Under the pieces are notes generated by a model. The model saw nothing but the letters and a program-made list of their open reading frames with translations. It was not told the origin of the DNA and made no database searches. From the NCBI GenBank assembly GCA_021234535.1, contig CM037830.1:62001-126000 (forward strand): a stretch of DNA of 64,000 bases, in the 5' to 3' direction. The position numbers and the translations under genes were made by a program. The stretch comes from Stichopus chloronotus (taxonomy: Eukaryota > Echinodermata > Holothuroidea > Aspidochirotida > Stichopodidae). This document shows, one piece after another, positions 20,291-63,368 of this stretch (its first letter is position 1; every line of letters begins with the position of its first letter).

Positions 20291-20557
20291 TCATATAATC
20301 CTACAGAGCTTGCTCCTCATCACACTATTGGTCCTGGTTTTACCCTGCTGACTGTATCCAGCTGTATCCTGTACTGCAAGAACTGCAGCAATAATAGCTT
20401 TCGCTGTGCCTTCGGGGTCCCCAGTTTGCGCTGCCTTTGCTACATTAACTGATGCCTTTGCTACTTTCTGACATATGTCGTTATGTTGAAAGGAGCTGTC
20501 CACAAAGTAAGTAGCAATGGCCTCTGCTAACACAATAGCTACCACACTACGAGCTAC
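20291..20557 (-). CDS. Last exon, long 3' form: Ala-rich helical C-terminus
   Basis: The 267-nt exon starts after gttcttaacgcag in phase 0 and stops at 20291. It encodes VARSVVAIVLAEAIATYF, then ICQKVAKASVNVAKAAQTGD and TAKAIIAAVLAVQDTAGY, followed by a basic tail (KTRTNSVMRSKL). The Ala/Val-rich amphipathic helices look like a packed helical bundle. The family was not recognised. The frame joins without a stop to the exon at 20757-21061. Confidence 0.65.
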   Translation of the reverse strand, partial: VARSVVAIVLAEAIATYFVDSSFQHNDICQKVAKASVNVAKAAQTGDPEGTAKAIIAAVLAVQDTAGYSQQGKTRTNSVMRSKLCRII

Positions 20558-23500
20558 CTGCGTTAAGAACAGATCATAGTTATAAAAGTAGTATGGTCAA
20601 TCCTCCTGACATGAAAATGTTAAAAAAAATTTCATATTATAATTACAAGATAAAGATCACGGGTGACATACACTTTTTCATACACTTCTTCATATCGCTA
20701 CCCTGCTTAAAATTCATTTGTTTTGTTAGTTTCTGTAAAGCAGTAACGATATTTACCCGTTTGCATTCTTCTTTCTCTGTGGATATTCGGTCATCAGGAA
20801 TTCCCCATTTTAAGGAAGAGTTTTTCGTGGAGAGCTCCATTTGTTGTGGCTTACAGGTTTGTAGACTGTTCAATGATGAACTACTGTGTACAGCAGTAGA
20901 TATTGAGTACTCCTGCACGTTTGGTGGATCAATTACATTGGTATGCCTTTGCTGGTTACTTTTGAAGTCTAGCCATACAGGATTGAAGTCTTCATCTGAC
21001 AAGGTTGCATTTGTTCCAGATAGGCGGTAAAGCCAAGACTCTATGTCCTCATAGAAGCTGGCTGCACAAAATTTTGTAAAAAAAAGAAGTTTTATTTGGG
21101 GATGTGTGAGTATCAAGGTATTGCTTCAGAAGTATCCCAACAAAAGAAACTAGTGATAATTAATGTCTATAATCATCAACTGCATTATGACGACATAATA
21201 ATGTAGTTTCAGTAAATTGGTACAAATACTGCACGGAACTCAAACATATAACAATTTCGTTCCATATGTATACAATGTATACTTAAAAGCATTGTTACAT
21301 ATATGGTCACGTATTAAATATGAAATTACCCAGACGCCATAATGAATACTTAAGTAACCATTACACTGAATTGTAACAACATTCGTGAGTCTACCACTAC
21401 ACTGTATTGTAAGTACATTCATGAGTCTAAATATAGAAACGAGCAAAGTAGAATCCATGTTGTTTTCTAACATTAGGCTAGAGGTATTACTCATAATCCC
21501 ATAACATTGATTAGCAAAGGAGTAGTAATTATAAAAATATTTCTACATTGTTTAGAAAATTCTGCATACTTGTCATTAAAACAGATGCACACCAGATGTA
21601 AACGCCTTATTTGTACTCACTACACTGTAAGAAATATGATTTGCAGAACAAAAAAAATTACAAAACACGTGAAGATTTCCCGTTACCTATTTTTCGCATT
21701 TATCTTTGCAAGGCCGTCCAGTTCTCTTAGATGCTGTCATTAATGCTTGTCCCACACTTTTACCGGTTGTTGCCTTATCTGATTCAAAAATCTGTTTACA
21801 TCACTGACAGGACACAAATCCTCCCCATCCCGCCCATACTCTGTTCCTTATGTGTGAGACGCTATTACCAAATGAATGTATGCTTCTTGTAGGATAAATT
21901 TCTTAGTCGTTTTCAGAGGTATTTTCTCCAACATCTGATAAATAAATCAGGAAGCATGAGAAAAATTTGTTATAAATTCATTTTTGGTGGCACTAGACAG
22001 CGTCTGAGGGTCCTCTAATTCTTCAAAATATCTTCCAGAGGAGAGGGGACGTCTCCTCTTTCTACGACCTCCCGACCGACGATCACACTCCTGTGGGGTC
22101 AGGGGATGCCCTGTGAAAAATTACTCTGTAAGCCTATAATTTTTCGTGCTGTAATTCTACAAACATCTGTAGAACTTTTAAACCGTGTAGCTGATGAAAT
22201 AAAATGTCCATTGCAATTTGATAATGACAAAAAAGTGAAACATTTTCGTTTAAAATAGTTTTGGCTTGATTGACAGTTTGCTTTGTGAGTGCTAGATTTC
22301 TTTCTTAGTACTAATTCATGTACTTCTTTAGTACTAACTCATGTACTTCTTGAATGTGATGTATCACTAACCTTTCCATGGCAACAGCATATTAACGTCA
22401 ACGCTGAAACGAAATCCACCAACTGCAACGTCTAAAAGAGAATTTTGGAAGTTTTCTTGGAGACAGAGATAGAGTGGCACTTCTGGCCAGTTGTCATACT
22501 CGTCCGACTCTATCGTGAAATAGAGTGGACAAGGAACCAAGATGATCTGAAGACAAAATATTCAACTGTAAGCCTGTGGCTTAAGTTAATTATTCTCTGA
22601 AGTAGTACTTCACCGAAGATTTAATTATATGTCCTAAAGCAATTACAACTGTAAGGAAGCCATTGTTGTCGGTACCGTTATGCTTCGTTTGCAAAGTAAT
22701 GAAATGTATTACATATACTGTTTACATTAATTAAATGTAAAATTTATGGAGTTCTTATTGAACATAATTCAGGTAAACAGTATATGTAAATTCTACATAA
22801 TTTTGGTAAATTTTACTACATTTTAGTAAAATTGTTATATACACAATGTAAGACTCACATTAACTGTGTGCAAAATTTTACCTAAAAGTTATGGAGTTCT
22901 TATTTTACCGTTACGTTTTGTGAGTATGCCAAAGTAGCAAAATATTCTGCCAGTTTCTTAACAACAAATCCTTCCTTATAATTAGCTTCAATGAGTTTTT
23001 GTACACCGTAAGGATATTGCACTTCATAAAACACTTTTTACTCGTTACAGTTTGTGTGTAAAAGGAAATATGTGTTACATATTATTTACAAACCTTGAAT
23101 GAACTGTAACTCTCGCTTCTCAGAAATTGATGAATCAACATCAATATATTAGATGTTCTGCTCCATAGGACCTCTGTTGCTTTCAGTTCACCTTCTTCAT
23201 CAGCAGTTACCCTACTTGTAACATCCAAACAGTGATCAAGTCCAACGGCTTTGTGTAACTTGATGAACACCTTGAAATTATGATGAAATTCAATCAATAA
23301 CTGAACTGAAAACCGACAACTAAATCTAGTTATTTGTACTGGTGATGGCCGGAAATTGTAGGGTTGAGTGAACAAGACATCTGGCCTTTTATTCGTGTAG
23401 AAGTTGTCTGCCATTTAAGTTGTGTGCGTACAAGGTACTATCTAATTTTAAAGGTATGTGTAAGGTATCAAATCTGAAAACTGTGCATACAGTGTCTGCT

Positions 23501-26500
23501 CTTAGAATCATGTGTAAGACTTTGTTCTTATAAGGTTGTTTAAAGGAACGTAAGGTCACTTAGTTACCAATCTGCTAATGAGAAGTTTAAAATTCTGCCT
23601 GCATACTGATGTTCTAACGGTCACATTTAATAACATTTTGCTACTAACAACCATAAAACATATTTCAGCTTATGGCAGGTGAAAAGATTATTACCTGACC
23701 AAGTTTAAACAGTAACCCTCCCTGCCAGTGAAGTTTGCAAAATTCGTTCGGTATGTGAATTCGACAATAGGACAAGATAGCAGCAAACAGTCCTGGTGGT
23801 TCCCTGGAAAAGAACTTAAGTCGCCAACACAACTGGATATCACCTTGGACTAGTTCTGATGGGGTCCAATTCAATGTCTAAATACAAAAGAAGGATCGGT
23901 AATTATATCATGCAGTCACTGTAAGACACAGAGCAAATGCATAAAATATAAATAGATTTGTGTTGAACGTATTCAACGAAACTAGGCAAACACCGTTTCG
24001 GGTAGGGATACCCTATAGGGGTTTATCAGAAATCCGTTGGAGACATCAGGGCAGTAATCGCCCTAATGTCTCAAACATTAAGGCTGTTTCTTTCACTCAA
24101 CTGAAATATACATTCCTTGATTTAGCTTCATTTTTTTTTTGTTTACATGACTATCTTATGATTCACGATTAGAAGTGTTTGTATGGGAGTTGATGTACAT
24201 GTATGACATTTTGCTACTACACACGTTATATTATGTATAGGTGTACTGTACGTGAAGTGCGAAACCCCATTTTATCTGGTGATGATCTGTTGTAGCTTAG
24301 ATAAATTAAACCAACATCGTTGCGTAATTGTGAAGAACATTTGATAAACTGTTGTTGAAAATAGACATTCGAAGATTGTTAAGTCTAATTTAAATTTACG
24401 AAAGAATGAATTAATAGGCTGACATCACAATTATCCATATCGCAAATTTCTGTGACAACATTAATTTTTTTTCTGCCTACCTTTAAGACTTGGGGAGGGA
24501 GGGCAGTTGATATAATGTCCCCAATAAAATATTGGAGGGACATCCCCCTCCCCGATCGTCGTTTACGGTCTCTTTGTCACATATATTCGGTCTATTGATA
24601 GCACGACAGCAACTATAGAAACTGCATAAATGATCATTTGTCCAAAAATGTCTACCGGGTGGACTGGCTACAAAATTTAAGGTTGGTAGCTTAACCCTTT
24701 TGTAACATTTAAAGGTGTTGAAACCTAACATGGTTGGTTTTAACATTCAAGTTGAAGGTAGTCCTATTGTGGTGAGTAGTTCAACACTATTGTATTTCAT
24801 AAGTAGAGTGCAGGAATAAATTTTGTTGATATTGCTCACAGAAATTAATGATCAATACTAAGCTATAATGTATCAACAACATAGTCAACAAGAAGTGTAC
24901 TATATCCCATTTCCTCTGTCCTTCTCAAGTCATGCTTGAATCATTTGCTCCGGCATATAACTAACATCGGTAATTATTCCTGATTCTCGCATACACTACC
25001 GGACTCATATATGTAGACGGTGTAGAGTCTAACACAAGTTCGATCCTGATACGGCTACAGTCGGACTTGCTACTGGTGACGACGACGGGGCATGTCAGCT
25101 GAAACGTTTGTTGATTATTTTAACAATATTTGTAATTATATTTTCCTTGTAAAAACCTTATTCCCCTTGCCTGTTGTTATTGCCTGTAGTGTACGTTGTT
25201 GAATGTATTTCTAGTTAAAAATATCTTGGGGTAAGTTCTGAACAAAAATGACTTTGGGTGATCGTGCTGATGTCACATTTTGAATCTTTGAACATCTGTT
25301 TTTAATGTACATCGAGTTGTCTTAAAGATATCTACGAGAATTCTTCTTGTAGTGTTTGTATCTACAACCTCTTTATAGTTGGGTAGAAATGTTTTTGACG
25401 TCGAATTACAACGGATTGCCGGTAAAAGCTTCAGACGGTTGTGGGGGGAAGCCTTGAACGAAGTTGATAAAGCTTACCAGTGCCTCCTCATTTCTTAATT
25501 TGATTTCAGTACTCTTTCCATTCTTCCATCCGTCTCACGGTCCTTTAGTCCGTTAATCCGTCCGCCCGTCAGCCCATCAGTCCGTCTCCCCGTCTGTCCG
25601 ACTATCCGTCTGGCCGTCTGTGTGTCTATGTCTATATCTTTGTCTGTCTATCTGTTTGTCTGTCTGTCCGTCCGCTGGCCCGTCCGTCTGTATGGTCGAT
25701 GTACATGGTATAAACATATATCATATGCCGATAACACCAAATCTATCAATGAGTCAATATGATCATGTTGCTATGAGCTCTGGAACGTCTGGGATACCAT
25801 AACCTGGATCGTTCACAATAAGCTAATGATAAAAGATTCTAAACCAAAAATGTGTCATATTTATTCTAAATACATGCATTTTTCATTCCCTTCGAAGTTT
25901 CTGAGCAAAACAGGAAAAAATCCACAGAGAGGTTAGTTCATACTTTTCTCATGTCACTTTTAATTATATAAATTTATGCAATAGCTTGTTATATGTTTTG
26001 CGTGATATGACAAAGCCTGAACGTGTGCAGCCATTCTTTCTACAAAACTGAAAAATATATGCGACCATTTCTTGTAGACCTCCACTGGCTACCGCTTAAA
26101 TATCGTATTACTTACACAATGTCAAACGTTGACCTTCAAACATCTACATAACATGGCTCCTGGTTATATGTTTGATCTGTCAGTGACTGCCATGGACTTT
26201 GTCTTCGCTGACACTTCTCCACCTTCCCCCAACTCGAAGATCAATTTCTGTCACAGAAATCGACGCTTTTCTACTACTATTATCTACAACTACCATGGAG
26301 GTTTAAAACAGTCTACCTTTAGAACTCACCATACTTTAGCCAATCTTAATATTTTTAAATTGAATTTAAAAACCTACTATGTTTAGAGTGATTATTGTCA
26401 TGTTTAATAATCGGACTTGCTCTTGTGTGTTTACTGTCTTCAGGCTTTTGTCTCTAAATGATTCTACTTGCTCTTATTTGTACAGTCTTACTTTATATCT

Positions 26501-29500
26501 ATATTATCTGCTCGGATGTGTTCATTGTCTCACTTTTATCGATTAAACGACCTTAATATTGCTCTTGTAAAATGACTCTCTTTTATTTTTTTTAAACATT
26601 ATTACTGTACAGCGCTTTGAGACTTTAGTTGAAAGCGATTTACAAAGACAACAAATACGAAGTCGTCCCATGCTCAATTCATCAATCGATTTGATTACCA
26701 AAGAACAAAAGAAATGCGTAACAAAAGAAGTACTGACACTGTGTAACACTCCACGTCATCGTTTTTTCATTTTCTCTAAACTTTGAAAAGCCATATCGTT
26801 AAAACGGTAATAAATATAACCACGATTGCAACGAATTATCATTCAGGGCTTCACTCCACAACTTTTGAATAAGGCCAGTCCTCGTCTAAATGCATGAAAC
26901 TTGGTCTTTAAGATGACGTTTTTCACTTGTCAAGTAATTCACAATTTGAGCTTTGCTGAACCCTAATGACCATTGACCTGAACTCAAAGCAATGGGCTTC
27001 AGCCGACGTTATAAGCAAAGTGACTTACAAACAATTATATGCGATTAGACTAAGGTTGCTTTCTTTAGACATTGATCTTACAAAGTTTACACAGTTTGAC
27101 CTGCACCTCAGTTCAACTTTGGCCTCTACCAAACCAAGAATGATGGTATACGTAACATGGTTGACATATATGGTAAATACTAGACCAGTCCAAGTTCATA
27201 TCTGAAAGTTTTACAAGATTTTCATTTTTTAGATCCTGTTGAACTGTGGGTTGTTGTTGACCTTTTGATCTCCACTAAATCAAAGTTGAATTTGCGCTTA
27301 AAGTGATTGCGTGCGTAGGGAAAAGTAAAAACATTGAAATTTCGTGTCCAAAAGTTTGGTAAGGTTTTAATTACACCATTCAGACAATCTGGGAAAATAA
27401 ATAGGTTTCAGTTGGTTAATCTTGCCATGTGATTTCAAATTCTTCTAACATAACGACAAAAAGTGTATAATATGATAATGCAGTGGTTGACAGTTTTCAT
27501 TCAAATCAACGGTGTGCTTCTTTGCGCAAGCCAATGGGAAGTATACTAGTAATAAACATTCAGTTACAACTCAGGATCACTGACGCCGCGGGCAAGGTTG
27601 TGTTCAGTTCGTAGGTTATTTGTAAATACAGTGTTTCCTTTCACCAAATGCTACAATTCCCGATATCTACCAAGGAGCGACGACTTGAGTAGTATGTTTT
27701 TGATACCCTAGTGAGACCTGTACTGTTGCATATTCATTATGTAGGCGGTTATAGTAAGAACCGTTAATTTTCAAATATGATTTCTGTTTTTTACTGTTTT
27801 TATGCCAATCCCGGTGCTTTTCGAAGTAGACACTGTCCTTTTCCTTCATTGAAAGACATAGTCCGTTCATGTAAAACCTCGCGTGTAGATTTAAAAATAA
27901 AGAAAAAGTTAAGATCAAACATAATCTTAACCTTTTTGGTTTTTCAGTACACACGCAATCACTTTAATATGATTGATGTAAATCATGAGTATGAGATACC
28001 TCCAAGCTTGCATTCTTGATAAAATGTGTTTGACAAGACTGTTTCACATTTTTATCTCGGCCAACCACAGATGACCTTTGACCTACACCAAAACAACAGA
28101 ATTATTTTAATCAATATGGTACATACACATACCAAGTATGCGAGTAGTCCAACATTTTTTAATCAATGGGCTACATTGCCACCTGTGAACTTCGTAGCAG
28201 TCGGCATAGTTTACAAGTCCCCGCGCAGACTATTATCCTTCTTATTTTTACTGCACGGTACTGTATAAAAAGGTCGCGACCCGGAATCGTGTACCTACTA
28301 TGACAATAGAATTTTAGGAACGAAATAGCAATATGCATTACATGTGTCTATGGCAAGTTGAATGCCAAAACACGTGGAAAATCGGGACTAATGTAGTGGG
28401 TGTTAGATTTGAAAGCAAATACATTTGGTTGTCCTATTTCGCTATTTCCTTTTTTTTATTTTATTTTGTTTAATTTTTATTTCTGTTAAAGGGGGTTTGA
28501 GGAACGCACAGTGACTCTCGGGTAACATGTGGTTTGCGGGTGGCAATTGGCCAAACCTGGATTAGTCCAACTTGTTGTTCGTGTTATACCTTGTTTACGA
28601 GCACACACGATATCAAGATTACTAGAATCCTCCCTTAACTTATTGCACAAAACATTTTGGTGTATCCTCTTAATCGAGTGTACACTGTACTTATGTACAA
28701 AACTAGTAGGTTTAGACTACTACTGACTTAGATCAATTTAGGCTGTATCTGATTATCATGTTTAAGAGCATTCAGGTACGAATGTAACCTTCTCTTATTA
28801 GTTTGCATCAGTTATCATGTAGTTTATATTTACAAATCTATTTCTCGTGCACTTTCACGGTATCGATATTGCACTTTTACTGTGTGTTACCATTGAGCGT
28901 GTGGATTAAAAGAAATCATTTCTGTTCAAATCGTCAGTTTTATCGATAACTTACAGGTCCTTCTGTGCTCATTAGGTCTAACAACGGCAGTCGATACAAT
29001 CGGTGAGACGATAATCCTGGATACGTTGGAATCACAAATTTATCAAATGATGGAGTATTATGGTCGTCATCCTCTTGAATTAAAAAACAGGAATTTTGGA
29101 GAGCCCCGATTAACTTTATGACTTGTATTTCGTCCATATTCATGTCCTGTAAAGAAATATTAAAATGAATAATGTAATGAAAATGTTTTCCACTGCTGAT
29201 TGTGGAAACCCACAAGCAAGTACCACGACGTTAAAAATACAGCTTAAACATGCAGGGATCTTAAAGGTTGTGTGACATTCATCTAAAAGGAAGCTGGGTT
29301 TATTCAAAAGTTGCAGAGGAAAATCCTGAATGAAACTCCGTTAGAATTGTGTTTACACCGATTACCGTTTACAAGATATGGCCTTCCAAGTTTGATGAAA
29401 ATGCAAATATGACGACGCTAATGTTGCACAGTGTCGGTATTTCTTTTTTGTTAGGCCTGTATATATTGCTTCTTAACTTATTGTCCACTGGCTTACACAT

Positions 29501-32500
29501 TCGCAAGTGATATCATTTGTAACAAAGAACTACATTCTTCCAAAATAAAACCCTCAGGGTATACAAAGATCTCAGTTGTCCTCGAAATAAAGGTAAACAA
29601 AGGAAATAAAGTAAACATAAGATAACATAAGAAATATCGTTGGAGTCCCTCTGTTGACGTCATAAATTCCCATACTTAGCCAACGTTTATTCACGATGTA
29701 GTACTTTGCCTGAAAAATTGACAATATTTGATGGATTTTTTTTTATTTGTGACCATTTTCAACATTTGCAATGATTAATACTAGCAATATTCCAAAATGA
29801 CTGTCACTAATTGTAACTCATGGATCAAAATTCTTATTTATTATGAGAAGTTTTAATAAAGTTATGTAACCAACCTGCCATAATAGAGGGAAGACGCTCT
29901 CTCTGATGTAACCACGCAGAGCAATTTCCTCTAATGCCTTAACAAGAAGTCCTGGTGACGGCTGAGAGACTGTGTCCAATTTCGGCCAGAATCTGTTAGT
30001 TTCAAAATGAAATGACTTGTTTGGATTGTCTATATGAATTAAAAAGATCGCTTTTAGCAACGCAGGCGGGTTGATGCAAATCATTGTTGGGATCTGTGAG
30101 GATGCTGGCAATCTTCTATGCTGTACTACTTGAATTACGCCCTGCATGTAAAATAAAGAAAGAATTAATGTAAAAACACACTTTTGCGTACGGAAATATA
30201 TAATATGAGTGCTGTAATACATAACTTGCTAGTTCTCTTCAATTAGTTAAGAATGGCTGATTACGTATTTATCGCATCTCAGATGTACTTCAAATGGCCA
30301 CATTAGATCCAGTTGACTCACCAGTTGCAGGTTTATACAGATTCATTTCCTGTCGGCACAGTGCAAACAGTTTTTAATATTTGCACAAATTTCTATTGAA
30401 ATTACTTCAGTGGTTAAACGCTTTTCTATGTTTCTACGGTTAATAGTCAAGTACTCCAAACGATTTTTATGGCACAAATCCCCTGTCCCCCTCAAATAAA
30501 AAAAATGATACGGAAATTAAATGTATCTGATTTGTTTCATCGGCAAAACAGAGGATGATATTTTAAAATTTTAAATTAAGCTAATCATACCACGCTAGAA
30601 AGTCACCTTCAGTTGGTTTAATAACTTAGGCGTATAAACGTCCTGACGCATAATGAAACTTACCACATCAACAAGAAACTGGATTTCCGTTTTGACATCT
30701 GATGTATTGTTTTCAATTTCAGAATCCGCCGACAGGAGTTTGTCAATATCCTCCTTGCAAATCACATACTCTTGCTTCCTGGCAATCAAAAGCTGGTGAA
30801 ATGCTGCCAGTGTTGTCTCTTTTACTGGTTTACGTGTATGAGGAAAACACTCACTATTAAGGATGTTGTCGAATATTAACTGTTTAAGAGCATCAATCCC
30901 CTGTAAATGATACAATAAGGCCGATGATAAATTAGATTCACCAGAACGGTATTACCGATCACCACATTCAGTATGGCGGGGCCTGTTGAAAGGCAGTTCC
31001 AGGCAAATAAGAACGAGTGAAGGCCCGCAGGGTAGTACCCTGTGAATAGGAAGGGTGGATGTTACTATTCGTAGGGCGATTCTGTTGATAAGAAAGAGTG
31101 GATCAATATTCACAGAGTGGTCCCGGGTATTAACAGCTTAGAATATTCCCTAAAGATGGCAAGGAGACCAAATACAATATTATATAGCTTACATCACTAT
31201 GTGATATGCACCACAGTACATTAAACGTTAATTTCCTTGACAGTGTTATCGTAGGTGTTACAGGGTATACAGCCTTATCGTATCTGTGTGTCTGTGTATG
31301 TGTATCTTTTTAATGTATGACTTAACATAAAATGATCAGCTTTTTTTAAGAAACGATATCTAGCTAAAATTTTTAAGTTAATAGTTCCACGTGGAAGTGG
31401 TCATTAGTAGGCTAAGGTTGACAATGCTCAGTTGCCGCTCCCCTCCCCCCCCCCCCCGCCTCCCGAATAACCTTTGCCTCCTTTTCTTTCCGTCGGCCAT
31501 TGCACTGGGAATAGCCACAGCAGTTCAATATGTCTTTGTTTGTCACTGAACACAGTTGGAACATGATACAAAAGACTGACCAATTGGTAGAAATTTGTCA
31601 TAAAAGCTATAGCCTTCAAACTCTATTGAAGTCTACCCTTCGACTTTTATCTTTAGTTATTTCGTGTCTGAGTGGAGCTTCAGTGCATCGGTCCCTCCAA
31701 CAATGGAAATCTGTCAATTGCTATGTACGAAAACATGTACCGTGTAAGCCATTATGGAACATCAGACTGATCCTTTTCAGCATTCATTGCAGCCAGCAAA
31801 CAACATTGCTTGTAAAACTCAGTTTGTGTGCTGATCGTTTTTACTGTATCTTTTACAGCAGATCAGTCTTCTGTGAATTCCATGTTACTTTAAATTCCTG
31901 TATTAACTAAATTTTAATTGCTAGACTAGGAGGTTCCCAAGAGTAGAGGTACATACCACTCTCTTTAAAGACAAGCATTCGTCGAGGTTCATATGAAATA
32001 AGAACAAGTACTTATCGAAAGACATTATGTCGGTTTTATTTTTAAATAGGATTTCGTTTAATGAAGAATGCCCGTACAAATATATAGATAGGTCAATGTG
32101 AGCTTTGTGTAAGAGTTTTCTAGTTTTAACCTTGATACGGAAGATAAATATGAAGGATACGTACTTCGTTTAAAAAAAATATTGAACATGACTTAGCACA
32201 CATTAGATCATGAATTGTACCATTCAGAGTCAGTACCATGCATGAGGTAATGTTTGAGTCAATGTAACATTCTAAGCTTGATTGCGAATATTTAGATTCA
32301 GCACCGTTCCTGATTTATGTCTTATAGTGCACCAAACAGAGGATGCGTCAAATAAACAGGATGCTGAAAGCCAACTTCATATTCACTTCATCAACATCAA
32401 CTTTTTGATTTTTAAATGTTGTTGAGGGCGATTTTATTTTTCGTTTTCTTCTTCAAATATGTACACATTAATCTTATAATAATATACTATCATATGCAAT

Positions 32501-35500
32501 GCTTTTGTTTAAGCGCTACAACGCTATTGTTATTACACTGTAATGTTGTTGTTACAATGTTATTGTGATTGTTATACAACGTTGTTGCTTTTCAGTTTAC
32601 AATGCTATTGCTATAAAACAACATTGTTATTGTTACTGTACGATGCTATTGTTACTTTTATACAAGCGTGTTGTTATTATACTACAATACTATTCTTACT
32701 AGGCTGCAATTGCTATTACTTCTACACTACAATGTCATTGTTGTTGTTACTGTTATAAAATGGTATTACTGAGACCAAAGTGTATTGCACCTTTAAATGC
32801 AGTTCAGTCCATAGTTGTTCACCATGGAATCATCACATAATGTTTGGCTGTGTCGCCTTCTGGTTCTGGGCTTGTGATTTCGATTCGAGTTTGGAGATCT
32901 CCAGCTCAAGGATGTAGCCAACATTATGTACCACAATAAGACTGTCCTCATAGTCGATATATTCTATAGTTAAGATCCATCACAAATGAATTTAGCCCAT
33001 GCAGTTGATCCCAAATTGATATAGGTCCTACTTACCATTGATGTCACTGTACTTGCTGTTGTTACAAAGTAAGGAGTCTCATCCAGATATTTCAGTCTTT
33101 CCTCAAGGTAACTCAACCTGTTCTGTATAATAACGTAGCTCAGATTGTCGGGATTTTGTCCATCACTGTAGAAAACAATATGAAGAGATAAAAAACAAAT
33201 GAAAGAGATATGAAATGAGTTTAAGTAAAAATGTTTGCAAAAGAATACGCTTTTCAAATCCATGTTAAGAGCTATAAATCAAATGTTTTACGTACAAATA
33301 TGCATGTGTATACTTGCAAACTGGGTTAACGTACGTGACTTAACATTGTAATGTATAGACCATCATTTAGCCATCAACAAGTTATCAACACGAAGAGAAC
33401 TATTGAAATACGTTCATTTTATTCTGGAAAATAGCACCTTCAGCAGTGTACACCAGTACCACTATTGCACTTTGTTTTAAGGGATATTTTAATGAACCAT
33501 AATGTATAAGTTGTTCGAAAGAGCGCAACCAAAATAAAGACAAGGCTCAGTAATTCTTTTTTCTTTTTACGAATTTCGGTAAACTTTTATCTCTTCTTCC
33601 ATTTTTCATGTGCAGTCTGTAATATCTGGATTGGTATAGATTCTATCAACTCTAAATGCGTTGAGGAAGTGCTTAAGCAATTTATTGGATTGCGGGATTG
33701 TTCTTTTATTAATTTCTTCTTTCTGTACAATGGCTGCTTAAGACTCAGACGATTGTCATTCAAGACGACTTAACTCAAACTAATTGGAAAGCGATATCTG
33801 CTGGCATGATGGCAATATTTGTCACATTAATAAGAAAATGAGTTATCAAGCACTTCTATTGTCACTGAGAAAGGTATTAAGAGTATTGTGGTACACAACC
33901 TAGACTAATATTTCTGATCGCCCTGCAAGTGCGTTTGATATTCTACATTCTATACCGCAATATTTCCAACTCTTCATTTAGTTCTCTCTTCATGTTTTCA
34001 ACTTGATCGGTGATAGCCACAGTTAGCCTCTCGAGCTTTATTAGACGCTCCTCCTCGCTTAGTACTCGATCTGCATGCAAGCCCACTATTATCAATGGAA
34101 TCTTTGGAAACTGTAGAGTAAACAATATTATGTATGTTACTTCATTACCAGGTACATACCTCTTATAGGAATATGCTTCTGTCTCAGAGAGAGCTTGTAA
34201 ATAAAGTTCAGTTTTAACTAGAGTAAATCTTTTAGATGTCGGCTTACATCTCATCGTTATATGGTCCGTCTTACTCAATACATGAACTCTTATTTATGTA
34301 ATGCCAGTGGCGGCGCCAGAATGTCAGACTTGGGGGCAAACTGAGGGCAGAGGAAAATCCTGGAGGGGCAAAGATTTTCGAGCAGCGCGAAACCGAGCGC
34401 GAAGCGCGAGGCCTTGCGGGTGGGGTCCAGGGGCCCGTCCTAGGGCCCCTGGTGGGGTCCAGGGGCAAAGCCCCAGCTGGGGTCCAGGGTGCTAAGTCCC
34501 CGGAAGCTCTGAGGTTTTAGCATATCTCTGGGTGGAATATTAAGTCCCAAGAGAGGTATACTATTTATTTTTATATTTTTTATTTTTTCGGTTGACCATA
34601 CTCCAAGGTTCCCAACTTTGTTCTTTGGGAGTACCATTTCACATTTACGCGGTGCCCCCGAGTACACACACACACCCACACTCACACAGGCTACATACAC
34701 TTCCATTCCATTCCTATAGTTAGGAAAACAACGACATTCCTATATTTAGGAAAACAACCACCTACCCGCCCTTCCCTTATGCTGGACGGTAAACATTCCA
34801 GAGAAAATTCGTCTGACCAGGCTGGCCTACTGTTGAAGTGCCTACGGGCATGATATTAAAACTGGCAGCCTGTGTAACATAAATTAGGCATTTATCAATC
34901 ATGGTTCCCGGGCGATTTTAATTCTTATTCAGTCCGATGCCAATACATAGTTGTGTGATTAAATTAATTTTGGATGAGTACAAGATCTGATCGGGAAGGG
35001 TGAGAGCAACTGGGGGGCAACTGGGGGGGCAAGGAAACAATCTGGAGGGGCAAGTGCCCCCTCATGCCCCCCCCCCCCGTAGCGCCGCCACTGTGTAATG
35101 CTCATACAGTAGAACAGCAAGTGCATGAAACCAGTGCTCTGACAGCTTCCACATGCAATCCACTTAGATTATCTCTGCTACAATATGTTAAACGTGATAT
35201 AAATGATGATATCTAAACAAATTATGATGATTAGATGTGATTTGTCAACTTTGGTATTGTTTAGACTAGCTTTACAATTTAATAACAGTTATATCATCAC
35301 CATCGATTCAAGTTTTTCTTCCATTGCTATTATGTAGCCGATGATAAAGCTGATAATATTTACCATTAGATAAATGCAATTTCACAGACATCAGTCAGTG
35401 ATGTACTTAATATATCATGCACGGTCAATATGGTCTCATCCATTAATGAAGTTTGCTCCCGTACCAAAAGATATATAGTGTCAGATTTACTTTGTAAGTT

Positions 35501-50500: not shown

Positions 50501-53500
50501 TTAGCGGCGTCCCTGGTGGTTTCTGTAGTTACTAACAGGCGTACGTTCAGAAAAAAAATAAGGAAAGCTCCTGCACGACACTGTTAACGTACGTGCATGT
50601 CGTGAGCATGGGGTCAGTCATTGGTCAGGGTGAAGTAGGACAGGACTCACTTTGGAATTTGGAGCGTTTATAGTAACATGCTACGGGATTATTCAACAAC
50701 GTATAAGACAAAGACACATTGTTGACGATAATGCTGTACCTACCAGATGGCACAAACTTACACTTAGTTACAGGTTCATTACATGTAAAAGATTCCCCTG
50801 ATTTCACTCAAGCATGGTGGTTGACAGGACTGACAAGGAGGCACCTGTTGCCATACCTCTATGATAGGACATATCAGGCAATTCTCTTAGACATTCCTTA
50901 CGTCTTGTCTTATAAGAAAAGTTCTTCTGAACGCACCGCGTGAGAAGAACTGTCTAAGCAGAGCCCCACTATTGTTCGGAGCGGATTGAACAAGAAAAGA
51001 TTTGGCTTTACAAAGCCCCGGTGACAGGAAACAACACATCCCGGGGGTACTGAGCTGCACGTACTCAGCCTTGAAACAGGGATCTTGTGTCCATAATTGA
51101 TCAATTAATGAGAAAACATCACTCTATGAAAAATTGATAATAATTTGGATTGCTTCCATCTAGAATACTTGCACATTGTTAGGTAGCATTTGCCTGCCCA
51201 CTGCCCCGTTAAAGTCAGGACTGTTGACGATAAAATATTACACCTAAACAAAAGAATAATGGGTAATGAAAGACTAACGTGCAAGATATTGCAAATTTGG
51301 ATAAACGTAAAATATCAATTAATGAGGAAGCTGCTATTCTGAGATTGTGATGACGTAACCTGACTACATGTGATAGGGGAAGCGTTTGTTTTTCTTCATA
51401 ATTTATTGACAAATATTTTCAATAGTTTATAAGAATTTAGACGAATTAAATCAGAGTAGCAATAATTTGATTATGAGTAATTCAAGCCACAATGTGTACA
51501 CGTGTGTGCGCTTTCACAGAAATTATAGATAAAGAAAACAAAGAAATACATTAAAATTCCTGCTATCAGTTGTTATGTGACATCATAATTTGCTTTCCTC
51601 AAGTAGGTTTACATTTATCTCACCTCAGGCGAAAATGGCAACATACTTCTCTGAATTTGAAGAGCGTTTAACTTGGAGGGGGGATACTTTTGAATGAAAC
51701 TTTGAGTAGAGATTCGTCAAACACTTCTGCTTCATTTTCAGAAAGATAGTCCCAAAATTGCCTTCTCATTTAACCTTTAAAACATTATTAAGATCGGCGC
51801 GAGTGAAATGTCGTTCGATTTCTTGCATGTAGTGGTGCTCCACTTAAAACATGCAAGAGATCAGCGAAGTGTACAAGAAAAGCTTTGGCTAAACACATCC
51901 TCCGGCCAGATCACCGGAAATGGTACTCTAGCGCTCATTCTTTTTGTTTATTTACGCCTCTTCCTACCCTTACAAATAAATTCAGCTAAATAAATTTAGC
52001 TAAATACGACTCAAGAGGATTTAAAAGGGAAAAAGATGCTTGGGTATTGATAATAACTTTACACGATCTAAGGGAAGCATCACCATCGGTTAGAGCTCAG
52101 CGAACGAGAAAATTTGTGACTAACAAATTTGCAAGATGGCAGGAAATCGCACTTCGTTGGCCCATTTTCAACGTAACAAATTTCATTCAAGAAGAGAATA
52201 TTGCGAAGGTGGCGCTAGGCAACACCTGCTTGGTCTTTTGAAATGACAATACCTTTGGCACCTTAGAAACTTTAGACTTTGCTTATGGGGATTACCATAC
52301 TAGGTTGGGGCGTTTCTCGTCAAAATAGTAAGTTCTGCGCCTCTTTATTACATTAGAAAGTTTTCAAGAGCCTAACCCAATTTTATTTTTTTATTTTTTT
52401 TTCATCCATGTACTTACATGTGCCATCGAGGACTTGCATAGTTCTGTGCACCGCGCATTGCAAGCTGGCTCATCGTCGTTTGTAGAATTTCGTTGCTATC
52501 AAGGTGTGTACGAAAGTTAGAAGTCTCACGCAACATAGGGACGCACTTTGCCAGCATATATACGTCATGAATCGACACTGCTGTTACTACATGGATATGC
52601 CCAACTACCATTACGTGCATTCCTATTGTGCCATTATGATTGTCTCTACTAACCAATTACAGCATCCATACAGATTATTACTTCTTTTTTAAAGTACAAA
52701 CACCTCTATGAATACCCTTTCTTCCATTAAGGCTTCCCTCTCTATTATTATGAGTATCCCTCTCTATTATTATGAGTATTCCTGTCTAACATTAGGAGAA
52801 CTTTTACTTACCATTATGAGTGTCCCTAAAAGGAAACCACAAATGATGCATTTGGATGACATCATTTACGTGACTTGAGCTTCTTGCAGTTGTATTATCT
52901 GAAGATATAAGGGACTGTACGAGTGAAGTCTTGCCTCCTCTTGGAGGTCCCAATACAAACATTCGTAATCTACGTAGAAAATGTAATAAGAATTCAAGTT
53001 AGACATCAGAAGACAACATAAAGCACGGTGTTGTAGATATGGTGTTGTGTAGAATTCAGACATTAAGACGACGAAATTCGTATGGCGGGGTGGTTTCGTA
53101 GATACAAACATATTGACAAAGATGACCACAATTAGATAATATAAAACCAAGATAACTGAATTTGCTACTGTCAGGAGCAAATAATATGATCACAGCTTTG
53201 ATACTGTCACGTATCGATCGAGAGTAATTTCTTCTGTACTGTAGCTTCAAGTTACTGTGGTTCTCAGTAGTTACGACGGTACCATCTGGTAAAGCACATC
53301 TGACATTTGAAAAAAATGTTACTTTGGTGCTGCCAAAGTGTGACAACTGATACAGATTCAGCGGTGTTTTAATTTTGATGTAACATTAGTTGAGTGATAA
53401 CTTCACTTTTTTCTGGTAGGTATGGAGATAAGCATACAAGCTTAGTGATTAATATATGGATATAGTTACCTGCATTAAAAGAATAAGCATAACAATGAAG

Positions 53501-62500: not shown

Positions 62501-63368
62501 ACACACACACGCATACACACGCACGCACACACGCCAACCTGACTGCATAGGTTCCTGTGCTGACGCAAGGAACCAAAAATGAGCAAATGCAAAATGATAA
62601 GAATTAACCAGACAAAGAGCACCACGTAATGGTAATGTAAAGTAATAAACTAAGAAAATAAGCTCTTATATCTCATGCATTTTAAAAAAAGAAATCGTAA
62701 AAAAAAAAAAAATTTCCCAGATTTTCTTTTTGCTTTCTGTTTAGCCCTATACTTTTCCAGAAACTCGGGTCTACTGCACTGCAAAGAGTTCTTCATCTAC
62801 ACTGTAAAAAATGTCTGTAAATTTACAGAAAATAGAATAAAGAAATACATAGGAATTACAGAAATTGTCTGGAAACCGATGACCAGAACATTTCTGCATT
62901 CCTTTTGTGTTCCTTTATTTTATTTTCTGTAAATTTACATTTTTAACAGTGCAGAAACTGAGAAATCCTGTTCAGAATCCAGTGTGAGAAAATTCAATAT
63001 TTGAGCGAACGACACCCTCGTAGAAAGTCACTTACTACATCCTACGGAATTGGTCGGGCGTCTAGATGCAGAACCTATGGCAAAGAGCCAACCATATTAG
63101 CTTACTGATGATCATATACGTGCATGTTGTCACGGAATATACTTCAACCGCAAATGACATTTTCTGTTTGTAATTATCAAACGATGATTAATTTTTACCA
63201 GGTGAGAAAGGTAAGAGTAAGTCTTCCAATTAAACGAACTACTTACCTGAAAGTGAGATTGCTTTCTTTAAAGAACTCCATTACTACTTCTTCACCGGTG
63301 CCACAACGACATAATCTACGTTGCCATGCTGAAACTCTTCTGTAGTTGAAATAAGTCTTTCCAGCTGA
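20291..63368 (-). CDS. Roc-COR (ROCO-family) GTPase gene, multi-exon, N-terminus outside window
   Basis: Seen: twelve core minus-strand exons with GT-AG borders and compatible phases give one open frame. In order it shows a P-loop (GPPRGGKT), a DxxG switch (DVPG), a hydrophobic strand LPVIVFDISD, a G4-like VGLHAD, and then a COR domain (FLVDVG, ICINPPALL, ALEEIALRGY, PLLWQ; later EPPGLFAAIL and a W-Q-G-G strand). Known: Roc is a Ras-like GTPase always followed by COR, which mediates dimerisation, as in LRRK1/2 and MFHAS1. No kinase follows COR here, so MFHAS1-like ROCO proteins are the nearest comparison. LRRs, if present, lie beyond the right edge. The two predicted endings give about 719 or 855 residues from the first exon seen, plus 49 if the cassette exon at 50651-50797 is used. 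The Roc-COR assignment is firm. Exact ends, the first exon and the 3' choice are inferred. Confidence 0.88.
20757..21061 (-). CDS. Penultimate exon, long 3' form (or separate gene)
   Basis: The 305-nt exon starts after acaaaattttgtgcag and ends AAACGG|gtaaat (phase 1 in, phase 0 out). It encodes SFYEDIESWLYRLSGTNATL, a Ser/Asn-rich low-complexity linker, and EKEECKR. It can follow the exon ending at 22372 directly in frame. No known domain was recognised. It belongs to the Roc-COR transcript if the short terminal exon is skipped; otherwise it is a small separate gene. Confidence 0.6.
21947..22110 (-). CDS. Roc-COR gene, short alternative terminal exon
   Basis: The exon starts after gtaatttttcacag in phase 1, restoring GHPLTPQECDRRSGG. 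A strongly basic run (GGRRKRRRP), a possible nuclear or membrane-binding patch, follows, then an acidic tail and a stop at 21947-21949. No good donor lies inside; the best candidate in the right phase is CTA|GTGCCA at 21994, which is weak. So this is probably a terminal exon giving a 53-residue C-terminus. No canonical AATAAA was seen close downstream. Confidence 0.6.
22372..22546 (-). CDS. Roc-COR gene, exon after COR-B
   Basis: The 175-nt exon starts after caatattttgtcttcag and ends GGAAAG|gttagt (phase 0 in, phase 1 out). It encodes IILVPCPLYFTIESDEYD..., a proline- and aromatic-rich stretch ending SVDVNMLLPWK. I recognise no domain; it may be the end of COR or a linker. Its phase-1 end is compatible with two different downstream exons (see 21947-22110 and 20757-21061). 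Confidence 0.82.
22700..22925. repeat. Inverted and tandem repeats in an intron
   Basis: ACATATACTGTTTAC (22711-22725) is the exact reverse complement of GTAAACAGTATATGT (22773-22787). TTATGGAGTTCTTATT occurs twice (about 22743 and 22889). Probably a MITE relic. Confidence 0.6.
23094..23270 (-). CDS. Roc-COR gene, COR-B exon 2
   Basis: The 177-nt exon (59 codons) ends TTCAAG|gtttgt. I place the start after cataatttcaag (phase 0), giving VFIKLHKAVGLDHCLDVTSR and then WSRTSNILMLIHQFLRSE. The open frame continues upstream to 23414, but using an acceptor there would need a phase-1 intron, which conflicts with the previous exon. The content fits the beta strands and last helix of COR-B. Confidence 0.8.
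23695..23877 (-). CDS. Roc-COR gene, COR-B exon 1
   Basis: The 183-nt exon (61 codons) starts after cttttgtatttag and ends GGTCAG|gtaata, phase 0 on both sides. It encodes LCWRLKFFSREPPGLFAAIL and then SYCRIH...LHWQGGLLFKLGQ. COR-B in ROCO proteins carries the sequence pattern FxFxxLPxGLFxRLIxRC followed by W-R-D-G-V, and both are matched. The upstream intron is 5.1 kb and holds a LINE remnant. Confidence 0.9.
25490..25700. repeat. Degenerate (CTGT/CCGT)n pyrimidine-rich repeat
   Basis: Long run of TCCGTCTG, CTGTCTAT and similar tetranucleotide-based units in the 5.1-kb intron. A second, similar tract is at 40530-40765. Confidence 0.8.
26062..26660 (+). mobile_element. CR1/L2-like LINE remnant, RT C-terminus and 3' UTR
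   Basis: Frames show LHWLPLKYRITY, then after a frameshift TFKHLHNMAPGYMFDL and, at the end, LNIFKLNLKTYYV with stop at 26386. This is the C-terminal block of CR1/L2-type RTs. The 3' region has GCGCTTTGAGAC...AAAGCGATTTACAAAG (about 26610-26645), a typical 3' end. Inserted antisense to the host gene. Confidence 0.8.
26960..28270. repeat. Diverged relatives of the DR1-bearing repeat
   Basis: TGACCATTGACCT (about 26968) and TGACCTTTGACCT (28072) occur in similar context (CACCAAAACAACAGA; ACACACATACCAAGTATG). The copies are much eroded. Confidence 0.55.
28955..29146 (-). CDS. Roc-COR gene, COR winged-helix exon
   Basis: The 192-nt exon (64 codons) starts after atttctttacag and ends GGACCT|gtaagt, phase 0 on both sides. 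It encodes DEIQVIKLIGALQNSCFLIQ, an acidic loop, then DKFVIPTYPGL. Known COR domains have a winged-helix segment, LLxLMxxFxLC..., ending in YLVPSLL, which this fits. The next exon continues in frame into COR-B. Confidence 0.9.
29875..30141 (-). CDS. Roc-COR gene, COR-A exon
   Basis: The 267-nt exon (89 codons) starts after tattttacatgcag and ends TGGCAG|gttggt, phase 0 on both sides. Characteristic COR blocks are GVIQVVQHRRLPA (completing FLVDVG), MICINPPALLKAIFLI (the usual ILNPQWLxxAxxxI block), and LLVKALEEIALRGY leading to SVFPLLWQ (the usual GxLxxxxLxxLW block). This is the clearest evidence for a COR domain. Confidence 0.93.
30664..30900 (-). CDS. Roc-COR gene, Roc/COR-A junction exon
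   Basis: The 237-nt exon (79 codons) starts after atcatttacag and ends GATGTG|gtaagt, phase 0 on both sides. It encodes GIDALKQLIFDNIL, the last Roc helix, then a linker containing RKPVKETTLAAFHQLL and YVICKEDIDKLL, typical of the start of COR, and ends with FLVDV. COR domains commonly read FLHxxG at this point, and the glycine is supplied by the next exon. Confidence 0.9.
30960..32970. other. Intron sequence, low-complexity tracts
   Basis: Holds a C homopolymer (31446-31457) and a degenerate repeat of TTATTGTTACAATGC type (32505-32765). No exon was seen. Confidence 0.5.
33036..33165 (-). CDS. Roc-COR gene, end of Roc exon
   Basis: The 130-nt exon starts after ttgttttctacag and ends TCAATG|gtaagt (phase 2 in, phase 0 out). 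It encodes DGQNPDNLSYVIIQNRLSYL, then EERLKYLDETPYFVTTAST. The last part resembles the G5 region of Roc domains, where a strand such as YFxVSxxxG precedes the final helix. It joins in frame with both neighbours. Confidence 0.88.
33956..34110 (-). CDS. Roc-COR gene, G4-like exon
   Basis: The 155-nt exon starts after tttactctacag and ends TTGCG|gtatag (phase 0 in, phase 2 out). It encodes FPKIPLIIVGLHADRV, the strand and loop of the guanine-specificity motif. ROCO proteins usually have VGTHxD here; this protein has VGLHAD, keeping the aspartate but with Leu in place of Thr. A long charged helix follows (LSEEERLIKLERL...). A hAT-like transposon begins 195 bp upstream of the acceptor. Confidence 0.9.
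34305..35093 (+). mobile_element. hAT-like non-autonomous element with 8-bp target duplication
   Basis: Begins CAGTGGCGGCGCCAG and ends CGTAGCGCCGCCACTG, near-perfect terminal inverted repeats. It is flanked by TGTAATGC at 34297-34304 and 35094-35101. 789 bp. It contains G/C homopolymers, a CA-rich stretch and no transposase. It sits in the Roc-COR intron 195 bp upstream of the acceptor at 34110. The second copy is at 1072-1686. Confidence 0.93.
35607..35729 (-). CDS. Roc-COR gene, Roc core exon
   Basis: The 123-nt exon (41 codons) starts after tttacttcag and ends AATAAA|gtaagt, phase 0 on both sides. It encodes VGSKCVQPFLSL, the loop after switch II, then the central strand LPVIVFDISDNKS. 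In Roc domains this strand typically reads like YLLVFDLS. The helix KSVLEDVSYIHNK follows. It joins in frame to DVPGTV upstream and to the G4 exon downstream. Confidence 0.9.
36600..36995 (-). repeat. Fragments of the third block of the composite repeat
   Basis: GACGAGGAGCGTACAAGAGG, GGCCGGAAACGGCACTCC and GTGTTCTGAGATCATGAGG match, in minus orientation, the pattern found at 9900-10020 and 46880-47000. A G run and GGATCCAGGATTTGG precede it. Confidence 0.6.
37710..37757. repeat. Three-unit short tandem repeat
   Basis: CATTACTATAGTTAATT/CATTACTATATTT style units of about 15 bp. Confidence 0.6.
38778..38854 (-). CDS. Roc-COR gene, switch II (G3) exon
   Basis: The 77-nt exon starts after cttttctactacag and ends ACAGTG|gtatgt. 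Only the phase-1 frame is open. It encodes SLLNRKLDPSERALTIDLYD followed by VPGTV. The hydrophobic strand LTIDLYD running into D-V-P-G is the G3/Walker B signature (DxxG) that follows the P-loop in Ras-like and Roc GTPases. It ends in phase 0, matching the next exon. Confidence 0.85.
38900..40320. other. Intron sequence, no feature recognised
   Basis: No exon or known repeat seen. Frames at 39165-39422 and 39289-39519 lack supporting splice context. Confidence 0.45.
40340..40490 (+). mobile_element. Penelope-like GIY-YIG nuclease fragment
   Basis: Reads RIREHLPGKSAIYDHIINC, then KECRSSDKGTFTILATSS, the arginine/His-helix and downstream strand of a PLE GIY-YIG domain. The N-terminal part is missing. 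Confidence 0.6.
40530..40765. repeat. Degenerate (CTGT/CCGT)n repeat
   Basis: Runs of CCGTCTATCTGTCTG, CTATCTGTCTAT and similar. Same type as 25490-25700. Confidence 0.8.
40885..41106 (+). mobile_element. LINE reverse-transcriptase remnant, frameshifted
   Basis: Frame 1 reads VLSPVVFTL...YLLIKFADDAWGWLIYSDD, with RT motif C as F-A-D-D, then a stop. After a shift near 41000 another frame continues DEAYSYQLLSFVEYC and KKVIDFRSS, the usual LLN..KTKEMIVDFR region. Inactive. Confidence 0.75.
41110..41955. repeat. Inverted minisatellite structure
   Basis: Left arm: units CTATGTTCCGACTT/CTATGTTTCGACGT (41128-41253). Next come 20-22-bp units GCCGAAGAAAATGTACATTG (41268-41375) and GGCGCCAAAGTACAC-type units (41390-41755). 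Right arm: the same first unit in reverse complement, TGTCGAAACATAGAGA and TGTCGGAACATAGAGA (41750-41945). Many frames are open on both strands only because of the repeat. Confidence 0.9.
41960..44110. other. No gene recognised
   Basis: Within the 14-kb intron. Includes GCTTCGCCGCGAAGC (about 42355) and otherwise unremarkable AT-rich sequence. Confidence 0.45.
44120..44830. repeat. Satellite, about 158-bp unit, 5 copies
   Basis: CAAGATATGCTGGAAATACC recurs at 44125, 44285, 44453, 44604 and 44759 (151-168 bp apart). Each is followed by AATTTTGGGGCAAAATTGGC, a T tract and AAATCAGCAAATTTCAC. Confidence 0.9.
45520..46010 (-). repeat. Diverged copy of composite repeat block 3
   Basis: Begins AGGGGTGTAGCCAGC. 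Includes GATCGTACAAGAAAATTGG, GGCACTTCTCTGTGTTCC and TTGAAATAGAGATCTCATG, matching 46890-47010 in the same orientation. Confidence 0.65.
46690..48596 (-). repeat. Composite interspersed repeat, copy B (inverted)
   Basis: Contains the three blocks of 8967-10176 in reverse complement: 48596-48262, 47584-47400 (with the end of block 2) and 47390-46690. It is interrupted by a 668-bp insertion at 47585-48252. Block 1 carries an extra hairpin here (ATATCTCATCAC ... GTGATGAGATAT, 48344-48390). Confidence 0.85.
47585..48252. mobile_element. Non-autonomous DNA transposon, 9-bp target duplication (Mutator-like?)
   Basis: Flanked by GTCGTGGCA at 47576-47584 and 48253-48261. Copy A has this site once and uninterrupted (in reverse complement TGCCACGAC near 9292), so it acts as an empty site. 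Ends are TAGACTTTGCAAAGTCT and, at the other side in reverse complement, TAGACTCTGTAGAGTCT, both self-complementary. A 9-bp duplication fits Mutator-like elements. No transposase. Confidence 0.85.
48925..49375 (+). repeat. Fragments of composite repeat block 3
   Basis: TTAATTGAGAAATTGCAGAC, TTTCAAGGCTGGGCACATG and CCGCGCCAACGAATGG match 9868-10010 in the same orientation. A second piece at 49300-49370 has CAACTGATGGTAGCACTCCG. G homopolymers at 49031 and 49262. Confidence 0.75.
49896..49969. repeat. Perfect 36-bp palindrome with 2-nt loop
   Basis: 49896-49931 is the exact reverse complement of 49934-49969, with TT between. The centre reads GCTCGACATTT-TT-AAATGTCGAGC. It lies in the 14-kb intron. 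Confidence 0.95.
50651..50797 (-). CDS. Possible cassette exon between G1 and G3 of Roc
   Basis: The 147-nt open segment has a good donor (CCAAA|gtgagt) and a weak acceptor (gaaatcag, little pyrimidine before it). It is phase 1 in and phase 1 out, and so compatible with both neighbours whether included or skipped. It would add 49 residues (ESFTCNEPVTKCKF... to ...KRSKFQ) with three cysteines between the P-loop and DVPG. Without it the G1-G3 spacing is about 60 residues, closer to known Roc domains. It may be a cassette exon or a false exon. Confidence 0.35.
50945..52160 (-). repeat. Several fragments of composite repeat block 3
   Basis: At 50945-51115 (TTGAACAAGAAAAGATTTGG, GCCTTGAAACAGGGATC), 51820-51930 (GTGTACAAGAAAAGCTTTGG, ATCACCGGAAATGG) and 52060-52160 (GCGAACGAGAAAATTTGTG, GATGGCAGGAAATCGCACTT), all in minus orientation. 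The order suggests repeated insertion into the same intron. Confidence 0.6.
52812..52969 (-). CDS. Roc-COR gene, P-loop (G1) exon
   Basis: The 158-nt exon starts after ttctacgtag and ends ATG|gtaagt (phase 2 in, phase 1 out). It encodes LRMFVLGPPRGGKTSLVQSL, a hydrophobic strand followed by a Walker A motif G-x4-GK-T and a helix, the standard opening of a Roc GTPase. An earlier weak donor (CAC|gtaaat at 52870) would leave phase 0, which does not fit the next Roc exon, so the longer form is preferred. The extra residues (VNDVIQMHHLWFPFRDTHN) then lie in the switch I region. The neighbouring sequence contains a 24-bp CTCTATTATTATGAG tandem repeat (52735-52820) that overlaps the 3' end of the exon. 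Confidence 0.85.
53000..58260. other. 10-kb intron, mostly unrecognised
   Basis: No exon compatible with the phase-2 junction was found. Frames such as 53056-53346 (minus) do not fit. On the plus strand, 56215-56250 has good borders (tttttcag and AAG|gtgagt), but too little sequence to call a gene. Confidence 0.4.
55091..55252. mobile_element. Palindromic MITE, copy 1
   Basis: CACTGTAAAAATGTAAATTTACAG at the left, CTGTAAATTTACATTTTACAAG and ACATTTTTAACA at the right. The middle contains ATTGTCTGGAAACTAATTACC. The same element is at 62800-62951. Confidence 0.85.
58271..58639 (+). repeat. Duplicated 370-bp segment, copy 1, containing a MITE
   Basis: TTGGACAAAATATCTTGGGA... to ...ATTATTGTGTGA matches 60043-60420 in direct orientation with few differences. 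An inverted pair, TTGGACAAAATATCTTGGGA and TCCCAACAATTTTGTCCAA, brackets the first 190 bp. Confidence 0.9.
58640..60031. other. No gene recognised
   Basis: Between the duplicated segments. Contains a tRNA-like B-box on the minus strand (about 59365-59380, GGAGTTCGACTC), but no cloverleaf was recovered. Confidence 0.45.
60032..60420 (+). repeat. Duplicated 370-bp segment, copy 2, with longer terminal inverted repeats
   Basis: Direct copy of 58271-58639. Here the left inverted repeat is longer (from CTCAGAGAATCTTGGAC at 60032) and matches GTCCAAGATTGTCTGAG ending about 60242, defining a MITE of about 210 bp. A G run follows at 60316. Confidence 0.9.
60811..61150 (-). repeat. Transposon-end sequence and composite block 3 fragment
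   Basis: CAGTGGCGTAGCTGTG at 60811 looks like a hAT-type end. 61005-61110 (AAGCGAAGCGCTACCATAGC, CAGCCGGAAATGGCATTTC) matches block 3 in minus orientation. Confidence 0.55.
61160..62576 (+). repeat. Repeat element ending in three 145-bp DR1 units and a hairpin
   Basis: Left part starts near AAGAGCCCAGGGGCACTCTGG (61169). 62040-62480 has TGACCTTTGACCT at 62081, a variant at 62225 and again at 62370, spaced 144-145 bp. Then come a CA microsatellite (62490-62535), hairpin GGTTCCT/AGGAACC (62550-62574) and AAAAAT. GGTTCCTTGCACAG near the left edge is similar to the reverse complement of the right end. Confidence 0.8.
62800..62951. mobile_element. Palindromic MITE, copy 2
   Basis: 152 bp from CACTGTAAAAAATGT to TTTTTAACAGTG, with inner arms GTAAATTTACAGAAAAT and ATTTTCTGTAAATTTAC. 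Preceded by TA, as in mariner-type insertions; the right-hand TA is now CA. Confidence 0.87.
63247..63368 (-). CDS. Roc-COR gene, first exon seen (lead-in to Roc)
   Basis: The 122-nt exon has a strong donor (TTTCAG|gtaagt) and an acceptor ending tttgtgtag. It reads SAGKTYFNYRR... to ...FKESNLTF and ends in phase 2. The P-loop exon starts in phase 2, and joining them gives a beta-strand-like NLTFRLRMFVLG running into the P-loop, as expected for the start of Roc. The first 35 residues match no domain I recognise. The frame opens in phase 0 at its 5' side, so more exons must lie beyond the window. The splice sites are good, but the link across 10.3 kb is inferred from phase and sense only. Confidence 0.6.

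Follow-up and report, generated by a model that had tools for sequence, protein, structure and literature searches.

Passages of two reviews (PMC6337361, PMC4104024) divide Roco proteins into groups with a leucine-rich repeat (LRR)-Roc-COR layout, with a kinase, and of the DAPK type, and a passage of the latter places ROC-COR always within multidomain proteins. Roco proteins dimerise, with a monomer-dimer balance set by nucleotide state, and it is Rabs that bring LRRK2 to membranes (both from passages of PMC6337361). In what follows we describe a Roc-COR gene on the minus strand of a 64,000-nucleotide stretch of DNA (the window; C2:62001-126000 in a 719 Mb eukaryotic genome of 267 contigs). 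We consider it quite probable that this is an intact gene for a membrane-anchored Roc-COR protein that has lost its LRRs, and the only copy of its kind found here; it is best read as belonging to an invertebrate branch of Roco proteins with its own membrane anchor. A prenyl-anchored Roco is a variant not met in the passages of the two reviews, and literature searches on Roco with CaaX, prenylation, lipid or echinoderm links found no paper on one among those listed; four papers contain both 'roco' and 'caax', and neither their listing nor passages of one of them (PMC6563779) deal with a prenylated Roco.

Spliced gene model and C-terminal CaaX box

Proteins of relatives were aligned to the locus with a custom protein-to-genome spliced aligner in which GT-AG introns were imposed as a condition. 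Patiria and Acanthaster guides placed 13 exons from 52969 to 20294 on the minus strand (score 913), together with extra small, doubtful pieces at 79027, 73570 and 63265 that have poor acceptor scores; those at 79027 and 73570 were dropped and the 63265 piece was retained to close exon 1. With guides from sea urchin and brittle star the same 13 exons were obtained (exon 2 to the end, score 1097). The sole boundary to differ is the start of exon 13, at 20995 with Patiria/Acanthaster vs 21061 with sea urchin/brittle star, and it was placed by hand at 21061 between the two guided runs, the second of which agreed. The complete model has 14 coding exons from 63281 to 20291 (minus strand), with a coding sequence of 2481 nt that is in phase, lacks any internal stop and encodes 826 aa.

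An initial annotation of the window had joined 12 exons over 20291..63368. The left end of that span stands, whereas the right coding end is at 63281 rather than 63368, and the two guided alignments with exon 1 raise the count to 14. As that annotation had stated, no exon is obvious as a long frame, the pieces appearing as short open stretches in six-frame lists of the window, and GPPRGGKT, DVPG and VGLHAD (with GLHAD at 34083-34069) do fall in one spliced frame; the protein alignment of invertebrate ROCO relatives that it proposed joins the exons into one open frame. For one chosen frame the probability of being stop-free is about 1e-21, which is not a fair p-value because the exons were picked for being open; the weight for the gene model rests on the relatives. 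Chance open frames are ruled out by the two guide sets and by relatives from three phyla. No Rfam family reaches threshold across the window.

The predicted protein ends in SKLCRII, of which the last four residues form a CaaX box that was absent from the initial annotation. An ending S-[KR]-x-C-x-[IV]-[IVLM]-stop is shared by this protein and all eight relatives with a complete end (P0011 is truncated and was left out of the count); their boxes read CTIM, CTIM, CIIM, CSIV, CTVI, CIVV, CVIL and CMIL, all preceded by S-[KR]-[LMV]. Thus Cys at -4, Ile/Val at -2 and I/V/L/M at the last position are found in 9/9 complete C-termini, and the stretch that adjoins them is variable; the predicted local distance difference test (pLDDT) score of the tail is below 50 in both orthologue models. 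No CaaX box is present in the three bacterial Roco sequences with printed ends (P0005-P0007). According to passages of the PrePS paper (PMC1175975), CVIL and the K-Ras box CIIM are valid prenylation boxes, a last residue of Ile or Val is acceptable to both prenyl enzymes, and the prenylated cysteine follows a linker in which there are at most 11 small/hydrophilic residues. The sequence has both a CaaX motif and a putative open linker, and we infer that the cysteine may be prenylated. As a separate observation, a Ras-family gene of the same genome ends in CCTIM.

The features of the locus are given below, all on the minus strand; exons 2 to 12 and 14 were placed by both guided alignments.

63247..63281, exon 1, MEFFKESNLTF plus 2 nt, donor AG/GTAAGT; matched by VEYFCERSLGFR in the sea-urchin relative, putative start
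52812..52969, exon 2, Roc with the P-loop GPPRGGKT (52950-52927)
38778..38854, exon 3, Roc with DVPG as G3 (38795-38784)
35607..35729, exon 4, Roc
33956..34110, exon 5, Roc, G4 GLHAD, weak donor GCG/GTATAG
33036..33165, exon 6, end of Roc
30664..30900, exon 7, COR-A; also by orthologue fold
29875..30141, exon 8, COR-A, best-conserved block RFWPK ... FPLLWQ; also by tblastn
28955..29146, exon 9, COR
23695..23877, exon 10, COR-B (TLNWTP...); also by tblastn
23094..23270, exon 11, COR-B, weak acceptor
22372..22546, exon 12, end of COR-B
20757..21061, exon 13, variable linker, weak acceptor; hand-set, and by the sea urchin/brittle star-guided alignment
20291..20557, exon 14, Ala-rich C-terminal helices, tail and stop TGA (20293-20291)
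20294..20305, CaaX box CRII, last four codons; same position in 8/8 relatives whose C-terminus is complete
63474..63716, LRR stretch in decay; its counterpart in the sea-urchin protein is residues 179-261

Relatives and predicted Roc and COR domains

With a provisional 727-aa join as query, three relatives were found among 7993 scored candidates: an Acanthaster planci protein named 'MFHAS1-like' (850 aa, E 2e-61), Patiria miniata LOC119732661 (841 aa, E 2.3e-60) and a Bugula neritina protein (821 aa, E 1.6e-19). The hosts of the relatives are starfish, brittle star, sea urchins, abalone (Haliotis) and the bryozoan Bugula, and in these word-limited searches the animal relatives are invertebrate in 9/9 cases, in agreement with the earlier proposal of an invertebrate-specific ROCO protein. 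In a tree of 13 rows (the window protein, nine relatives and three bacterial Rocos) the window protein groups with three sea urchins with support 97/97, pointing to an echinozoan, for instance a sea cucumber, as the source. In the Roc part of P0010, the public Diadema antillarum protein, ~41 residues are directly repeated (VCQRCLHMFITPATLPLL...), which is probably an artefact of annotation.

Searching the genome with the sea-urchin protein gave 29 matches (28 candidates scored), nine of them at this locus; the other 20 lie elsewhere and cover only residues 23-320, the LRR part of the query. Neither a second Roc-COR copy nor an intact LRR-Roc-COR paralogue was found by this search, which a very diverged copy could escape, since it lists 9 of the 13 Roc-COR exons and misses the LRR remnant discussed below. 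Tblastn with five proteins found no tandem copy in the window or its 100 kb flanks at E 0.01. One LRR gene elsewhere (G000:C7:9298990-9299577, a 292-aa open frame) resembles the LRRs of the sea-urchin relative and is perhaps of FBXL type.

The relatives and the family profile point to a Roc-type GTPase domain: Pfam Roc scores above its cut-off in 9/9 relatives, and against solved structures the profile ranks the LRRK2 Roc first (1.1e-17). Earlier joins gave less, the hand-joined pieces matching Pfam Ras at 22.8 bits (cut-off 21.6) and Roc at 20.5 (cut-off 27) with no COR, and the provisional join giving weak GTPase matches only among solved structures, with Miro first at E 0.012 and not LRRK. 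The P-loop and DxxG are retained in the window protein. Most relatives have GTHxD as G4, and motifs have changed in other members too, G3 being DVSK in Amphiura and G4 being lost in Bugula.

A COR domain directly after Roc is predicted by orthology and by the modelled orthologue fold. The COR exons align to the orthologues by spliced alignment and tblastn, and AlphaFold 2 (AF2) models of orthologues match LRRK1, LRRK2 and bacterial Roco over Roc and COR. The full COR domain that had been claimed is upheld to this extent, but not by Pfam, and the profile check that the initial annotation suggested for the joined exons left Roc below its cut-off and gave no COR match, as detailed below; a genome-wide COR-B profile search yielded 3 candidates and no match. 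The protein is laid out as a short N-terminus (the modelled start is 14 residues before Roc), Roc, COR-A, COR-B, a variable linker, Ala-rich helices, tail and CaaX box. Pfam scans listed no kinase for the window protein or for nine relatives, and the frame ends in CRII-stop, consistent with the proposal of a ROCO protein without a C-terminal kinase; a DAPK-type N-terminal kinase, ankyrin repeats and a death domain are likewise missing from the window protein by Pfam at E<=1. The Ala-rich C-terminal helices (20557-20294) are conserved in seven aligned members and have no convincing solved relative, the best being a designed helical protein (E 2.4e-4) with no stretch significant alone. Their spacing also fits a loose pattern that we take to be of the AKAP amphipathic type, presumably of low specificity.

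LRR remnant, rival readings and other sequences in the window

The sea urchin and brittle star relatives have LRRs before Roc, and by predicted fold the sea-urchin LRR is closest to FBXL2/FBXL17. LRR exons had been expected to the right of the gene, and LRR sequence is indeed present at 63716-63474, but as a broken remnant and not as further exons; a weaker extension of the match reaches 63246. Chance does not account for this remnant, which scores 79 (penalty -12), 90 (-8) and 69 (no break, -25), where the best of 150 other stretches taken from the window and its flanks reach 34, 40.5 and 33, and 87 vs 38 in 30 shuffles (penalty -9). A point against its being genuine is that the genome search with the sea-urchin protein does not list it among its 29 matches. 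The remnant is not a working exon, as no GT occurs after its final matching codon and before the stop at 63461-63459. Intact upstream LRR exons were sought in an 80-kb pattern scan rightward, which gave 19 scattered minus-strand and 10 plus-strand matches and no run with a pattern tuned to the LxxLxLxxN type and weak for cysteine-type LRRs, and by guided spliced alignment, which gave only the remnant and short doubtful pieces. N-terminal LRRs directly before Roc-COR, the MFHAS1 layout, were not found in these 80 kb apart from this broken stretch.

Several observations weigh against an intact Roc-COR gene. The imposed GT-AG borders give no independent support, the start codon (ATG, 63281-63279) and first exon are putative, the exon 5 donor is poor (-1.8), and the acceptors of exons 11 (0.5) and 13 (0.8) are weak. 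Pfam Roc reaches only 22.5 bits in the window protein (E 1.5e-4, cut-off 27), with no COR or COR-B match at E<=1, and COR-B is listed in only 3/9 relatives (20.7, 23.9 and 26.8 bits, cut-off 27). The folded proteins are the orthologues and not the window protein, and three bacterial Roco sequences in both AF2 alignments would help a Roc-COR fold to appear. The window branch is long (1.38 in the 13-row tree), and G2 Thr is changed to Asn, the Arg/Lys after DxxG to Thr, and G4 THxD to LHAD, so that a recent loss of function is possible. A decaying gene, with its LRR part broken and its Roc-COR part a young pseudogene or weakly constrained, would match the frame breaks of the remnant, the branch length and the drifted G2 and G4. 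With penalties kept equal, however, the 243 bp of the remnant contain 3 breaks (-8) or 2 (-12) and about 2440 nt of exons 2-14 contain none, where 20 or more would be expected at that rate; at the lax penalty of -6 the remnant has 6, and exons 2-14 have 8 that stand in for gaps. We regard decay of the gene as improbable.

That the gene is the MFHAS1 orthologue of an invertebrate deuterostome, its LRRs lost, is doubtful. The LRRs of MFHAS1 are of the LxxLPxxI type and that of the sea urchin is not, being FBXL-like by predicted fold; MFHAS1 is not known to have a CaaX box, which we count against orthology. The name of the A. planci record and the LRR-Roc-COR layout without a kinase, as given for MFHAS1 in a passage of PMC6337361, speak for it, yet the gene occurs in Haliotis and Bugula and a passage of PMC4104024 limits MFHAS1 to deuterostomes. 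A cysteine conserved for palmitoylation, metal binding or structure, its CaaX look coincidental, would fit an Arg at the first 'a' place of CRII; we think this very improbable, as the CaaX pattern is present in 9/9 complete ends and RhoB CKVL shows that a basic residue is tolerated at that place (a passage of PMC1175975).

Tandem arrays lie within several introns of the Roc-COR gene. A 161-bp array (44108-44830) is in the 14-kb intron between exons 2 and 3, and of two 145-bp-unit arrays sharing GACCTCCACCAAAAAC (6518-6813 and 62057-62485) the second is in intron 1; a 215-bp array occupies 5417-6517. At 16850-16950, some 79 kb into contig C2, there is a telomere-like tandem array of CCTAACCCTAACC. 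Very similar translations (CRCFPKYRNGMEVYV...) at 1217-1528 (plus strand) and 34440-34739 (minus strand) represent a dispersed repeat, one copy of which is in the intron between exons 4 and 5. A 209-aa open frame at 10154-10783 (plus strand) reads, by eye, like the end of a retrotransposon polyprotein.

Proposed working and comparison with known systems

COR mediates dimerisation in Roco proteins. For the intact, membrane-anchored Roc-COR protein that we favour, the CRII cysteine would be prenylated by farnesyl- or geranylgeranyltransferase I, then clipped and methylated, and the lipidated cysteine would fix the Roc-COR module to a membrane, an anchor in the same chain replacing Rab recruitment. 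Partner binding would then be controlled, as it is for other Roco proteins, by COR-mediated dimerisation and nucleotide state. The gene is presumably expressed and functional, and because the LRR recognition part is lost and the GTPase motifs have drifted, its product is probably less a fast switch than a scaffold tethered to the membrane, turning GTP over slowly or not at all. We lean somewhat toward a broader reading, that of an old, undescribed Roco branch with its own prenyl anchor, whose known members come from echinoderms, one mollusc and one bryozoan at the least. FBXL-type LRRs would have been both added and lost, in different lineages, and its motifs would have eroded repeatedly (G2 and G4 here, DVSK in Amphiura, G4 in Bugula), so that some members would be membrane-bound pseudo-GTPase scaffolds. 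This CaaX group seems to include near-minimal Roc-COR proteins, unlike the multidomain rule in the cited passage of PMC4104024.

Among described proteins, MFHAS1 is alike in having Roc-COR without a kinase and in lending its name to the A. planci record; the window protein differs in lacking an intact LRR, in the FBXL-type LRR of its sea-urchin relative, in the CaaX tail and in mollusc and bryozoan members, differences that set MFHAS1 apart by description and not by sequence. Bacterial and archaeal Roco proteins (C. tepidum, M. barkeri) have a similar LRR-Roc-COR or Roc-COR fold, without CaaX in the three printed bacterial ends. FBXL2/FBXL17 have no Roc-COR, and the LRR part corresponding to them is decayed in the window species. 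GBPs are dynamin-type GTPases with unrelated domains, anchored through a CaaX box. The likeness to GBP1/GBP2, large lipid-anchored GTPases of cell-autonomous immunity (for GBP2, PMC9839784), is an analogy of working only. Any link to immunity, whether through MFHAS1, the GBPs or the Aplysia ROCO-TIR proteins (noted in a passage of PMC9334734), would be by analogy.

LRRKs carry WD40. LRRK1 and LRRK2 resemble the family in the modelled fold and order of Roc, COR-A and COR-B and in providing the nearest solved Roc by family profile, whereas the window protein lacks a kinase and an intact LRR and has a CaaX box of its own. The family bears on the routes by which LRRK2 and related proteins get to membranes, and on the question of switch versus scaffold for Roc-COR. 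At about 830 aa, kinase-less in all members seen and apparently without LRR in several lineages, these proteins may offer a small system for Roc-COR at the membrane, and a Roco with a built-in lipid anchor would separate membrane attachment from the Rab recruitment of LRRK2.
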